This document shows, one piece after another, positions 11,275 through 15,334 of a stretch of 64,000 nucleotides of DNA. The notes below the pieces were generated by a model. It made no database searches, had not been told where the DNA came from, and saw only the letters and a program-made list of their open reading frames with translations. Both the position numbers and the translations under genes were made by a program. Position 1 is the first letter of the stretch. The number at the start of each line of letters is the position of its first letter. The DNA comes from Verrucomicrobium sp. GAS474 (GTDB taxonomy: Bacteria; Verrucomicrobiota; Verrucomicrobiia; Methylacidiphilales; GAS474). The stretch spans positions 310,001 to 374,000 of the forward strand of contig NZ_LT629781.1 in NCBI RefSeq assembly GCF_900105685.1. The letters are read 5' to 3'.

Positions 11275-11814
11275 ATGGCCGCCGTCGATTTTGAAGAGAT
11301 GGTGGAGCGTTATTACGGACCGCTCCACCGCTTTGCCCTGAGTCTCGCCCGGGACAGCCATGAAGCGGGCGACCTCACGCAGCAGACCTTCGTCGCCTGG
11401 GCTGAAAAAGGACATCAATTGCGCGACCCCTCGAAAGTGAAAAGCTGGCTCTTCAGCACCCTCTACCGGCAGTTCCTCGGGGCGCGGCGGCGGGAAAACC
11501 GTTTCCCCGAACGGGAACTCGAAGCCTGCGCCCTCACCGGCGATCTCCCCGTCATCCCCCCCGCCATGGAGGCGAGCCTCGACGGGGCGACCGTCCTGAA
11601 CGCCCTCCGCCACGTCGATGAGGTCTTCCGCGCGCCCCTCTCCCTTTTCTACCTCCACGATCACTCCTACAAGGAAATCGCCGCGATCCTCGACATCCCC
11701 ATCGGCACCGTCATGTCCCGGATCGCGCGCGGGAAGGAAGCCCTCCGCGCCCGCCTCCTCCCCGCCGCCCAATCGCCGTCGCCATCGCCATCGCAATCGG
11801 AGGCCCTTTCATGA
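11275..11814 (+). CDS. ECF-family RNA polymerase sigma factor
   Basis: 179 residues with the two-domain ECF layout. Region 2 (about 8-75) reads FEEMVERYYGPLHRFALSLARDSHEAGDLTQQTFVAWAEKGHQ...SWLFSTLYRQFLGARRREN. Region 4 (about 112-165) reads ALRHVDEVFRAPLSLFYLHDHSYKEIAAILDIPIGTVMSRIARGKEALRARL, with the helix-turn-helix at SYKEIAAILDIPIGTVMSRI. It overlaps the next gene, its probable anti-sigma factor, by 4 bp. The presence of DoxX, MNIO and DUF2063 genes downstream matches sigma/anti-sigma-controlled bufferin operons known from other bacteria, so it likely responds to metal or oxidative stress. Confidence 0.9.
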   Translation: MAAVDFEEMVERYYGPLHRFALSLARDSHEAGDLTQQTFVAWAEKGHQLRDPSKVKSWLFSTLYRQFLGARRRENRFPERELEACALTGDLPVIPPAMEASLDGATVLNALRHVDEVFRAPLSLFYLHDHSYKEIAAILDIPIGTVMSRIARGKEALRARLLPAAQSPSPSPSQSEALS

Positions 11815-12605
11815 GCCGGCCTTCCTCCCTGACTCCCGAGGAAGCCCGCCGCCTGCTGCGCGCCGCCCGCGCGAACGGGGCCGACGACGCCGATCCCGCC
11901 TTCGCCGAGGCCCTCGCCCTCGCCCGCCGCGATCCCGAGCTCGCCCGCTGGCTGGCCGAGGAACGCCGCGTCGACCTCCACGTCACGGGGAGGCTTGCCG
12001 AGACGTTCCCCACCGCCGCGCCCGACCCCGACGCGAAGGCCGCCCTCCTCGCGCGGATGCGGTCGGCGGAGCCCCGGCCCGTCGCCATTCCCGTTCCCCT
12101 TCTGCGCCGTCCCCGCGCCTACGCCCTCCTCGCGCTGGCCGCCGTCGCCATCGCGGCGGCCGCGCTCCTGCCCCTCCTCCGTCCCTCCTACGCCAGCTAC
12201 GAGGGGGAACTCGCCGAACAGATCGCGTGCGGCGAGGTCACCCAACTCGCGCACGAATCCCCCGACGTCGCCACGCTCGAGCATTGGCTCGCCGCCAACC
12301 ACGCCCCCTCGCCGATCGTCCTCCCCGGCAGCCTCCAGGCGGTCCCCAGCCTCGGCTGCCGGACCTTCAACTGGAAGGGGCGGCAGGTCGGCCAGGTCTG
12401 CTTCACGCTGGAGAACGGGAAGATCGTCCATCTCTTCGTCATCCGCGACGCCGGATGGCGGCCCGCCACCGCGCCGCCCCAGGGCCAGGGCCATTCCCAA
12501 TTCAACCGCCACGGCGATTGGACCCTCGCCAGCTGGCGGGACGGCGCCACCACCTACGTCCTCGCCGGAGAGGGCGACCTGGAGACGGTGAAAAAGCTCC
12601 TCTGA
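11811..12605 (+). CDS. Probable membrane anti-sigma factor
   Basis: 264 residues, start overlapping the sigma-factor stop. About 100 cytoplasmic residues (Ala/Arg-rich helices with LARWLAEERRVDLHVTGRL) precede one membrane helix (about 103-125, AYALLALAAVAIAAAALLPLL) and a periplasmic domain of about 135 residues. That domain has three cysteines (IACGE, SLGCRTF, GQVCF) and ends in a compact beta-rich part (DWTLASWRDGATTYVLAGEGD). Position and topology indicate a single-pass anti-sigma factor. The periplasmic cysteines could sense copper or redox state, which is inference; I see no named anti-sigma domain. Confidence 0.65.
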   Translation: MSRPSSLTPEEARRLLRAARANGADDADPAFAEALALARRDPELARWLAEERRVDLHVTGRLAETFPTAAPDPDAKAALLARMRSAEPRPVAIPVPLLRRPRAYALLALAAVAIAAAALLPLLRPSYASYEGELAEQIACGEVTQLAHESPDVATLEHWLAANHAPSPIVLPGSLQAVPSLGCRTFNWKGRQVGQVCFTLENGKIVHLFVIRDAGWRPATAPPQGQGHSQFNRHGDWTLASWRDGATTYVLAGEGDLETVKKLL

Positions 12606-12641
12606 TTTCCCCAACCCCACGCCGAAAGAACCCGCCCCCCC

Positions 12642-13109
12642 ATGAGCCATCCTCTCAAACGCATCTACGAAGGCTGGACCGCCTTCCTCGAACTCCTCCA
12701 GTCGCCCTTCCTCCTCGCCATCCGGCTGTACTGGGGCATCAACATGATGCTCGCGGGCTGGGGGAAAGTGACCCACCTCAAGGACGTCTCCGGCTTCTTC
12801 GACCACCTCGGCATCCCCTTCCCCTACGCGAATGCCGTGATGGCCGCTGGGACCGAGACCCTCGGCGGGCTCCTCTTCGCCGTCGGCTTCGCCAGCCGGA
12901 TCGTCCCCGTGCCGCTCCTCTTCGTCATGGGCGTCGCCTATGCCACGGCCGAAAAGGAGTCCCTCCAGGCGATCTGGACCGCGCCCGACAAGTTCGTCTC
13001 CGCCGCCCCCTTCCTCTTCGCCTTCGCCTTCCTCATCGTCCTCCTCTTCGGCCCGGGCAAACTCTCCGTCGACGCCCTCCTCTGCCGGAACAAAGGCACC
13101 CACCCCTAA
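12642..13109 (+). CDS. DoxX family membrane protein
   Basis: 155-residue, four-helix DoxX-type protein. Recognisable stretches: FLLAIRLYWGINMMLAGWGKVTHLKDVSGFFDHLGIPFPYANAVMAAGTETLGGLLFAVGFASRI (split over helices 1-3) and a final helix FLFAFAFLIVLLFGPGKLSVDALL. DoxX proteins are quinone-linked or redox-associated membrane proteins and recur in MNIO/bufferin operons. Part of the operon running from the sigma factor to the DUF2063 gene. Confidence 0.88.
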   Translation: MSHPLKRIYEGWTAFLELLQSPFLLAIRLYWGINMMLAGWGKVTHLKDVSGFFDHLGIPFPYANAVMAAGTETLGGLLFAVGFASRIVPVPLLFVMGVAYATAEKESLQAIWTAPDKFVSAAPFLFAFAFLIVLLFGPGKLSVDALLCRNKGTHP

Positions 13110-13136
13110 ATTTTTCCCCATCTTTTTCGTCCCCCA

Positions 13137-13146
13137 CGGGAATAAA
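13137..13146 (+). promoter_or_regulatory. Second copy of the ECF-type promoter motif, before the peptide gene
   Basis: CGGGAATAAA, identical to 11233-11242, followed 17 nt on by TCTCACG. Lies in the DoxX-precursor gap, 104 nt before the precursor start, suggesting an internal sigma-dependent promoter and a 5' leader of roughly 75 nt. Confidence 0.5.
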
Positions 13147-13250
13147 TCCCGACGCCCCGCCTCTCACGTTCCATGCCGCCGCCGATCCCGCCAGGGAAGA
13201 CGGCGGCCCGAAACTCAACGTCGAACATCCAACCCAAGGAAAACCTCATC

Positions 13251-13511
13251 ATGAACCGCACCACTCACGCCCTCCTCCTCGGCCTCGCCGTCGCCGGCCT
13301 CACCGCCGGAACCTCGGCCCGCGTCCACGCCTCCGCCTCGTCCGCTCCCGGCTCCCTCCTCCAGGCCTCGATCAACACCGCCGACACGAACTCCTGCAAG
13401 GGCCAGAATTCGTGCAAGGGCAAGGGCGGCTGCAAGAGCGGCGACAACAGCTGCAAGGGCAAGAACTCCTGCAAGGGCAAGGGCGGCTGCAAGACCAACA
13501 GCGTCCTCTAG
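13251..13511 (+). CDS. Cys/Lys/Gly-repeat secreted peptide, putative MNIO (bufferin-like) RiPP precursor
   Basis: 86 residues from ATG 13251, with AAGGAAAA as Shine-Dalgarno. The N-terminal half is a Sec-type signal peptide (TTHALLLGLAVAGLTAGTSA, cleavage near VHA-SA). The C-terminal core has six cysteines in a near-perfect duplication of NSCKG-x-NSCKGKGGCK, separated by SGD. There is no other cysteine, and no acidic residue in the core apart from the linker Asp. Followed by an MNIO (DUF692) gene and a DUF2063 gene, this is the layout of bufferin precursors, whose cysteines are modified by the MNIO enzyme to bind copper. The core differs from the EGKCG-type motif I associate with classical BufA1/DUF2282. 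Alternative: an unmodified metallothionein-like peptide. Confidence 0.75.
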   Translation: MNRTTHALLLGLAVAGLTAGTSARVHASASSAPGSLLQASINTADTNSCKGQNSCKGKGGCKSGDNSCKGKNSCKGKGGCKTNSVL

Positions 13512-13520
13512 CCCGCTCCC

Positions 13521-13561
13521 GCGCCGGGCGCGGTCCGATCCCCGCCCGGCGCTCCTTTTTC
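13521..13561 (+). terminator. Strong hairpin between precursor and MNIO gene (terminator/attenuator)
   Basis: GCGCCGGGCG (13521-13530) pairs perfectly with CGCCCGGCGC (13543-13552), with a 12-nt loop, followed by TCCTTTTT. It sits 10 bp after the precursor stop and 24 bp before the MNIO start. Partial termination here would give much more precursor than enzyme, as expected for a RiPP operon. Confidence 0.7.
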
Positions 13562-13575
13562 TTTCCTTTTCCCCC

Positions 13576-14436
13576 ATGCCCGCCAACGCCTTCAACGGCT
13601 TCACCGATTACGGCATCGGCATCGGGCTCCGCGTCCCCCACTACCAGCACATCCTCAGCCGGAAGCCGACCGTCGACTGGTTCGAGATCATCTCCGAGAA
13701 CTTCATGGTCGACGGAGGCCGCCCCCTCCACGTCCTCGACCAGATCCTCGAGCAATACCGCGTCGTCCAGCACGGCGTCTCGATGTACTTCGGCTCCGCC
13801 GACAAGACCGACCGCGCCCACCTGAAGCGGCTGAAGGCCCTCGTGAAGCGGACGAAGACCCCGTGGCTCTCCGACCACCTCTGCTGGGGGAGCGTCGACG
13901 GCACCTACACCCACGACCTCATCCCGATGCCCTACACCTTCGCCGCCGCGAAGCGGACGGCGCAGAAGATTCGCGAGGTCCGCGACTTCCTCGAAGTCCC
14001 CATCGCCGTCGAGAACGTCAGCAGCTACGTCGAGTTCCACGCCTCGGAGATGACCGAATGGGAATTCCTCAACGAAGTCGTCGAGAAAGCCGACTGCGGC
14101 GTCCTCCTCGACGTGAACAACATCTACGTCTCCTCGAGGAACCACGGCTTCGACCCGCGCGTCTACGTCGACTCTGTCGATCCCCGGCGCGTCGCCCAGA
14201 TCCACATCGCGGGCCACTCGAAGTACGAACGCTTCCTCCTCGACACCCACGACCATCCCGTCCTCGACCCCGTCTGGAAACTCTACGCCCGCGTCCTCGC
14301 GCGGACCGGGGCGACGGCGACCCTCCTCGAATGGGACGACCGCATTCCCTCCTTCGACGAAGTCCACGCCGAGGCGAAGAAATCGTCCCGCTACCTCGAC
14401 GCCCACCGCTCCTCCCATGGCCAAGCCCAAGCCTGA
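13576..14436 (+). CDS. MNIO (DUF692) multinuclear iron oxidase, BufB-like
   Basis: 286-residue TIM-barrel enzyme of the DUF692/MNIO family (relatives: MbnB of methanobactin synthesis and BufB). These use two or three irons and O2 to modify cysteines of a peptide. Visible metal-binding and core stretches: GIGLRVPHYQHIL, DWFEIISENFM, VQHGVSMYFGS, WLSDHLCWGS, VENVSSYVEF, CGVLLDVNNIYVS, QIHIAGHSKYE, DTHDHPV and LLEWDDRIPSFDEV. The set of His, Asp, Glu and Asn ligands looks complete. Expected substrate is the Cys-rich peptide just upstream. The 3' end overlaps the DUF2063 gene by 20 bp, indicating tight coupling with its recognition partner. Confidence 0.9.
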   Translation: MPANAFNGFTDYGIGIGLRVPHYQHILSRKPTVDWFEIISENFMVDGGRPLHVLDQILEQYRVVQHGVSMYFGSADKTDRAHLKRLKALVKRTKTPWLSDHLCWGSVDGTYTHDLIPMPYTFAAAKRTAQKIREVRDFLEVPIAVENVSSYVEFHASEMTEWEFLNEVVEKADCGVLLDVNNIYVSSRNHGFDPRVYVDSVDPRRVAQIHIAGHSKYERFLLDTHDHPVLDPVWKLYARVLARTGATATLLEWDDRIPSFDEVHAEAKKSSRYLDAHRSSHGQAQA

Positions 14437-15334
14437 CGCCCGCTCCCGCGCCGGATTGAAGGCGTTCCAGAAAACCGTCGCCGCCGCGATCATGGCCCCG
14501 CCCGGCGCGAAGAAGGAGCGCACGGCCCTCGCCCTCGTCAAGCCGAACGACCGCCTCACCGCCGCCGAACGGCTCGACATCTACCACGTCCAATACTGGC
14601 TCCGCGTCACGGAGGCCCTGCGCGAGGACTTTCCCGCCCTGGAGGCCGCCCTCGGAGCGAGGCGTTTCGCCGCCCTCTCCCGCGCCTACCTGACGGCCCA
14701 CCCCTCCCGCAGCCACACTCTCCGCAACCTCGGCAGCCTTCTCCCCGCCTTCCTCGCGCAACCGGCAAACCGGAAATGGAGCTCTCCCCGGCCGGGACAG
14801 GCCCTCGCCGTCGACCTCGCCCGCTTCGAGTGGGCCCAGGTCGTCGCCTTCGACGAGGCCGAGCTCCCCCCCCTCCCCGCCGAGGTTCTGTCCGGGGGCG
14901 ATCCGGGCCAGCTCCGCTTCCGCCTCCAGCCCCACCTCACCCTCCTCGAACTCCGCCACCCCGTCGACGCCTTCGTCCTCGCCCTCCAGCACGACACCCG
15001 CCTCCGCTCCGAGGCGAGCAACGTCCTCACGCGGAGGAAAAAGAAGGGAAAAGAGAAAAAGCGCCCGCCGCTTCCGAAGCCCGAAAAAACCTGGCTCGCC
15101 GTCCATCGCTCCGACCAGCTCCTCTACTCGAAGCGGCTCGGCCCCGAGGCCTTCCGCCTCCTCGCCGCCCTCGGCGCGGGCCGCCCCCTCGCCAAGGCCT
15201 GCCAGGACGCCTTCCCCCAACCGCTGCCGAAACGGAATCCCGAAGCCGAACTCGAACGCCGCAGCCGGATCATCCAGGACGGCTTCCGCCTCTGGGCCCA
15301 GCTCGGCTGGCTGGCGGCGTTCAAGGGATGCTGA
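14417..15334 (+). CDS. DUF2063 (BufC/MbnC-like) partner protein
   Basis: 305 residues. The N-terminal DUF2063 domain (about 12-110) shows LKAFQKTVAAAIM, ERLDIYHVQYWLRVTEALREDFPALEAALGARRFAALSRAYLTAHPSRSHTLRNLGSLLPAFL. A second half follows (about 120-300) with DLARFEWAQVVAFDEAE and LHLTLLELRHPVDAFVLAL-like segments. A basic linker, RRKKKGKEKKR, lies near residues 207-217. Although annotated as putative DNA-binding, family members next to MNIO enzymes act as the peptide-recognition subunit of the MNIO complex. Last gene of the operon; a short GAGG/CCTC stem with T-run (15331-15350) may terminate it. Confidence 0.85.
   Translation: MAKPKPDARSRAGLKAFQKTVAAAIMAPPGAKKERTALALVKPNDRLTAAERLDIYHVQYWLRVTEALREDFPALEAALGARRFAALSRAYLTAHPSRSHTLRNLGSLLPAFLAQPANRKWSSPRPGQALAVDLARFEWAQVVAFDEAELPPLPAEVLSGGDPGQLRFRLQPHLTLLELRHPVDAFVLALQHDTRLRSEASNVLTRRKKKGKEKKRPPLPKPEKTWLAVHRSDQLLYSKRLGPEAFRLLAALGAGRPLAKACQDAFPQPLPKRNPEAELERRSRIIQDGFRLWAQLGWLAAFKGC

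Follow-up and report, generated by a model that had tools for sequence, protein, structure and literature searches.

The window analysed here is a 64,000-nucleotide stretch of contig NZ_LT629781.1 (positions 310,001 to 374,000) from the complete, 3.76-Mb genome of Verrucomicrobium sp. GAS474 (Verrucomicrobiota), and it carries a cluster of six consecutive genes, all on the plus strand, that encodes a putative captophorin (bufferin-like peptide), its predicted modifying enzymes and a sigma-factor switch. The first two genes encode an extracytoplasmic function (ECF) sigma factor of 179 aa (11275..11814; Pfam Sigma70_r2 and r4) and a single-pass anti-sigma factor of 264 aa (11811..12605), recognized from an alignment of homologues, DUF3379 matches among them and an AlphaFold2 (AF2) model; its start overlaps the end of the sigma gene through an ATGA. 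These are followed by a DoxX family membrane protein (12642..13109; Pfam PF07681, 2.9e-16) that is HvfX-like (NCBIfam HvfX 5.9e-17, below its cut-off), a precursor peptide of 86 aa (13251..13511), an MNIO enzyme of 286 aa (13576..14436), and a DUF2063 partner protein of PME type 1 (14417..15334; Pfam PF09836, 7.1e-19; NCBIfam HvfC 9e-12, below cut-off), the reading frame of which overlaps that of the MNIO. Two putative ECF-type promoters on the same strand, P1 (11234..11264) and P2 (13138..13167), lie upstream of the sigma gene and of the precursor-MNIO-DUF2063 operon, respectively. An earlier note on this DNA had proposed this gene order and its likeness to a bufferin neighbourhood, and both are borne out by the open reading frames and the Pfam and NCBIfam families; it had overlooked the promoters, and the feature is better taken to start at around 11234. 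The nearest relative among the fetched loci comes from an uncultured Verrucomicrobium bin (L026; L and G numbers are our labels for loci and genomes), with an MNIO 90% identical.

The precursor starts with an ATG at 13251, preceded by the Shine-Dalgarno sequence AAGGA, and combines a Sec-type signal peptide with the core NSCKGQNSCKGKGGCK-SGD-NSCKGKNSCKGKGGCK, i.e., two 16-residue units (13389..13436 and 13446..13493, plus strand) identical at 15 of 16 positions. All six cysteines (C49, C55, C61, C68, C74, C80) are directly followed by a lysine. The two near-identical six-cysteine units had been described correctly; the core, said to have no acidic metal-binding residues, does contain one Asp, in the linker. 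The NCBIfam BufA2 model matches this precursor with 49 bits (5.2e-13; curated cut-off 60), and of seven other precursors from the lineage, six score 35-49 bits and one has no match. As the cut-off is an annotation threshold that does not define chemistry, we file the precursor as a variant rather than as a strict BufA2 equivalog. Cysteine gaps are 5-5-6-5-5 in this precursor and the eight relatives measured, versus 5-5-6-5-12 in five canonical Buf2 precursors from Pseudomonadota plasmids (Thiothrix, P. mandelii, Cupriavidus, Asticcacaulis, Sphingobium), and profiles of the lineage and of Buf2 align across the first five cysteines (hhalign, P 2e-14). The GW..C..GG C-terminal segment of Buf2 is absent and GGC stands in its place; this gives the core the look of a duplicated unit, which is probably why it was taken for a new class. 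A Cys-Lys captophorin precursor group with NACKG motifs has already been named in a captophorin survey (PMC12668002), and six-cysteine DUF692/DUF2063 clusters have also been seen in Antarctic soil (PMC8692599). Given the BufA2 match, the spacing of the first five cysteines common to Buf2 and this published group, the "possible new class" of the earlier note is not supported: judged by its sequence, the precursor is a shortened Buf2/Cys-Lys captophorin variant.

This core is not a product of chance, since it is conserved in dozens of genomes. The search for such precursors beside MNIO genes that the earlier note had suggested returned the exact six-cysteine register in 66 of 103 related loci (Verrucomicrobiota and Acidobacteriota) and CKG variants in 26 more, always immediately 5' of MNIO and DUF2063. 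With a CKG peptide in 92 of the 103 relatives, no conserved set was found that keeps the enzyme pair and lacks the peptide; most of the relatives without it that were checked have another secreted cysteine repeat peptide or end in a truncated contig. The genome carrying the window has a single BufA2-like gene and a single MNIO gene. A search of 14 control genomes with the BufA2 model gave no match, and neither did a plasmid search with the precursor as the sole query, which is too short for this purpose.

The MNIO (Pfam PF05114, 2.7e-107) was assigned by the curated family cut-offs, scoring 351 bits against NCBIfam MNIO_BufB (cut-off 310) and 247 bits against HvfB (cut-off 360). When it is aligned with 3BWW, TglH and MbnB, the Asp254 of its EWDD motif falls at the position of the catalytic base, and Asp255 where 3BWW has a Phe. 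An Asp following the catalytic Asp has been tied to Cys-Lys substrates (PMC12668002), and EWDD is found in 91 of 105 MNIO frames surveyed (window copies counted in). The DUF2063 protein returned only chance matches from the PDB. Two other classes were set aside: Bufferin 1, as its precursor family DUF2282 has no Pfam match in the window, and the oxazolin/HvfA class, as the precursor contains no EGKCG repeats, Asp rather than Phe follows the catalytic Asp, and HvfB scores below its cut-off. These sequence assignments agree with the earlier prediction of a metallophore with modified cysteines. In three other Verrucomicrobiota loci (L018, L022, L024), the MNIO gene is preceded by a secreted precursor built from acidic repeats that contain DDCPGK (Cys then Pro), and exactly in these the enzyme reads EWDG instead of EWDD; this might be a further captophorin subtype with a matching change in the active site.

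The sigma factor is 45-80% identical to those found beside MNIO clusters in Verrucomicrobiota. In pairwise comparisons, it scores 41 bits against a sigma factor from the rpoE6 region of S. meliloti pSymA (ECF26), unannotated and identified by its adjacent promoters, versus 13 bits against the NrsF-linked SigF. ECF26 systems (S. meliloti RpoE1/RpoE4) are similar in their promoter, the mapped RpoE1 promoter GGGAATAAATCC...GTCTTAT being nearly equal to P1 and P2 (PMC6180224), and in their anti-sigma factors, which have an N-terminal domain, one transmembrane segment and a periplasmic domain; the window locus has both the ECF26-type promoter (GGGAATAA-N15/16-TCT) and a single-pass anti-sigma factor. 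Yet the S. meliloti system responds to sulfite, and no captophorin target is reported in the literature we found.

The anti-sigma factor consists of a helical N-terminal domain, one transmembrane segment (∼101-123) and a periplasmic domain. It has no Pfam match itself; DUF3379 is matched by four of its eight aligned homologues, a family for which we found no link with sigma factors in the literature. An assignment to NrsF/ECF16 does not fit, as no NrsF match was obtained in the window and the model shows one transmembrane segment, not six. Of the three periplasmic cysteines in which the earlier note had seen a sensor, C183 and C197 are present in all nine anti-sigma sequences compared, whereas C138 is not conserved, so that the idea of a sensor survives with two cysteines. 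The AlphaFold2 model has a predicted local distance difference test (pLDDT) score of 73 overall, and of 72-89 in the beta part of its periplasmic portion. The periplasmic domain as modelled is similar to the RseB/MucB C-terminal domain (Foldseek E 3e-4), and C183 and C197 are predicted to lie on two successive strands of this RseB-C-like domain. A redox or soft-metal switch at this pair would be the natural reading.

The upstream regions of the sigma gene and of the precursor share the element GGGAATAA-N15/16-CTCyCAC (P1, GGGAATAA-N16-CTCCCAC; P2, GGGAATAA-N15-CTCTCAC). Both the relaxed pattern GGGAATAAN{15,16}YTCNNAY and the pattern GGAATAAN{15,16}CTCNNAY match exactly two sites in the 3.76-Mb genome, namely P1 and P2, and a reversed-pattern control matches none. 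As the pattern was derived from these and related sites, this count indicates a narrow regulon and is no proof of the motif, for which the relatives offer a more independent test. In 58 MNIO loci from Verrucomicrobiota (410 kb) we found 18 matches where first-order shuffles expect 0.1, and 17 of them sit directly 5' of, and on the same strand as, a gene for a sigma factor, precursor or DoxX protein; the remaining one (L105) is 5' of an MNIO gene that has no annotated precursor. None was found in the Acidobacteriota loci. Seventeen whole genomes of relatives contain 29 matches (3 for reversed controls), followed by the sigma gene (5), the precursor (3), DoxX (4), exported MsrA (2), exported MsrB (1), periplasmic redoxins (2), DUF1223 (1), DsbD (1) and an NDH2-like gene (1); the other nine lack an evident redox target, and some of them are probably chance matches. 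Judged by these neighbours, the promoter targets in relatives make up a small periplasmic thiol/methionine repair regulon, which in the window genome appears reduced to the captophorin locus, its sole MsrA being cytoplasmic and devoid of such a promoter. The sigma-factor control proposed earlier is supported. The -10 element of P1 lies 10 nt from the sigma ATG, and an identical or one-base-weaker element lies -2 to +7 nt from the ATG at the sigma genes of 12 other loci (L026, L033, L119-L121, L125-L128, L130, L138, L140). This spacing (-2 to +10 nt) predicts a sigma mRNA with little or no leader in all 13 loci.

Among Verrucomicrobiota genomes, the anti-sigma factor is present in 19 of 24 that have an MNIO versus 37 of 265 that do not (Fisher p = 3e-11, a value that ignores shared ancestry). 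The five MNIO-positive genomes without it belong to the window's own order. Four of these (L019-L021, L023; genomes of ∼2.3 Mb) have neither sigma nor anti-sigma gene and keep MNIO and DUF2063 with a precursor reduced to two CKG motifs; the fifth (L016) has a Cys/Lys peptide of non-CKG type. An anti-sigma factor dedicated to captophorins is rejected by its presence in the 37 MNIO-negative genomes and in the gammaproteobacterium Photobacterium sp. DA100 (L115, 5857-7250), where relatives of the pair have no MNIO nearby and the anti-sigma factor lacks the first conserved sensor cysteine. Buf2-like clusters of Acidobacteriota (L027, L044, L045, L073, L081, L084) have an unrelated ECF sigma factor close to DoxX, and in L027 this sigma factor is followed by a small anti-sigma factor of the zinc (ZAS-like) type; control of these clusters by sigma factors thus seems to have evolved on more than one occasion.

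Compared with known systems, the cluster shares most with Buf2 (Buf_6-12Cys, NCBIfam BufA2) and the Cys-Lys captophorins: a signal peptide, six cysteines in CKG contexts with the first four gaps 5-5-6-5, the MNIO (BufB) and DUF2063 genes next to the precursor, DoxX nearby, and Asp-Asp in the MNIO. It differs from Buf2 in its last gap and missing tail, which leave a core of two near-identical units, in its score below the BufA2 cut-off, and in its sigma/anti-sigma pair. Its wiring resembles other systems that join captophorin operons to methionine sulfoxide reductase (Msr) or to a heavy-metal response, although the types of anti-sigma factor differ. In Caulobacter, sigma-F and a cysteine-dependent anti-sigma factor control both bufferin operons (PMC3511200), and these Bufferin 1 operons (ECF16) likewise place an ECF sigma factor and a cysteine-containing membrane anti-sigma factor over precursor, MNIO, DUF2063 and DoxX; there, however, the anti-sigma factor is a six-transmembrane NrsF instead of a single-pass DUF3379-type protein, the precursor is of the DUF2282 family, and the sigma factor is only remotely related (13 bits). 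ECF sigma factors of group 13 also drive Msr together with DoxX/MNIO/DUF2063 clusters in Haemophilus (RpoE2/HrsE; PMC7907618) and Neisseria (SigE/MseR; PMC2893595), but with soluble zinc (ZAS) anti-sigma factors, similar to the one beside the Acidobacteriota relative, and EGKCG precursors. According to a landscape survey of 2025, sigma genes occur near Buf1 but not near Buf2 clusters (PMC12452194). Loci of the window type are exceptions to this statement, as is the plasmid pASEM-1 of Asticcacaulis excentricus (L111), in which a Buf2-MNIO-DUF2063 operon is immediately followed by an ECF sigma gene and two NrsF genes and adjoined by a divergent Buf1 operon.

Taken together, we consider it likely that the six genes and their two promoters form a stress module for the production of a captophorin of the Buf2 (Cys-Lys) type. 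As long as the cell is unstressed, the single-pass anti-sigma factor would keep the ECF sigma factor at the membrane; oxidation of C183/C197, or binding of a soft metal to them, would free it to fire P1 (sigma, anti-sigma and DoxX, hence autoregulation) and P2 (precursor, MNIO and DUF2063). The MNIO, guided by DUF2063 as the partner carrying the RiPP (ribosomally synthesized and post-translationally modified peptide) recognition element (RRE), would turn the cysteines in (N)SCKG and GCK contexts into 5-thiooxazoles, and the peptide, exported by Sec, would buffer Cu(I) in the periplasm. This chemistry, with copper as the presumed metal, is carried over by analogy from work on Buf1, Buf2 and EGKCG peptides (PMC12452194, PMC12668002). 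Several observations weigh against such a scheme. The pair is adjacent to the MNIO in only about a quarter of MNIO-positive genomes, and its family is wider than the captophorin loci (the 37 genomes and the Photobacterium mentioned above); no strict promoter match was found in the relatives G018, G060, G188 and G269, despite the presence of sigma and MNIO genes; the precursor stays below the BufA2 cut-off; and the RseB-like match (VIA Z 7.7 across 88 residues to the RseB C-terminal domain, with most unrelated rows <5 and the next unrelated families at ∼5-6) lies below the level that excludes a merely common fold. The support for this organism is computational, from sequences and models.

The promoter neighbours also bear on a different function, in which the peptide would be a thiol-based sacrificial antioxidant or a scavenger of reactive chlorine, with metal binding secondary. 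The same promoter precedes exported MsrA/MsrB, redoxins and DsbD in relatives, hypochlorite induces the captophorin operon of H. influenzae via RpoE2 (PMC7907618), and in Brucella, MsrPQ and a sacrificial Met-rich peptide are both under the control of ECF16 (PMC8315932). Since the characterized Buf1, Buf2 and EGKCG products bind copper or aid growth in copper (PMC12452194, PMC12668002), and the cytoplasmic MsrA of the window genome stands outside the regulon, we regard this function as rather unlikely. The separate RiPP class of the earlier note, in which all six cysteines would carry another kind of modification, is improbable: the lineage precursors all score below the BufA2 cut-off and lack the GW..C..GG segment, and their MNIOs carry a Trp ahead of the catalytic Asp (EWD), a position held by Arg in the Buf2/Buf1 enzymes of Pseudomonadota, but cysteine register and partner genes are the same, the BufB equivalog matches, intermediate CKG motifs occur and the Cys-Lys group is published. 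Still less credible is an unmodified metallothionein-like Cys/Lys peptide, with the MNIO acting on another substrate, because precursor and MNIO are strictly adjacent across relatives and this MNIO is the only one in the genome, even if some bufferin precursor genes are solitary in other genomes (PMC12452194).

Within the proposed two-promoter captophorin module, the part that looks new is the sigma/anti-sigma switch with its promoter signature, a type we have not found described for captophorins. One could go further and see one more separate invention in Verrucomicrobiota, where a DUF3379-type, single-pass pair with an RseB-C-like two-cysteine sensor would have come to control a captophorin and, in relatives, exported MsrA/MsrB and thiol repair as well; the NrsF systems of alphaproteobacteria and the ZAS systems of Neisseria, Haemophilus and perhaps Acidobacteriota would be the others. 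The shortened Buf2 core may, in addition, lack a structural disulfide, in which case all six cysteines would be modified; for this joint reading we see the chances as evenly balanced. If true, the link between a copper-binding thiooxazole peptide and periplasmic sulfur repair would have been invented separately once more. Independently of this reading, the loci described here carry the captophorin/bufferin field into two further phyla, Verrucomicrobiota and Acidobacteriota. Their compact and symmetric Buf2 core lends itself to chemical work, and the window genome offers a testable regulon with just two promoters, a putatively autoregulated sigma factor and a candidate two-cysteine sensor. The repeated placement of captophorins beside methionine sulfoxide repair, under ECF switches that are unrelated to one another, points to copper buffering and periplasmic oxidative repair being one response.

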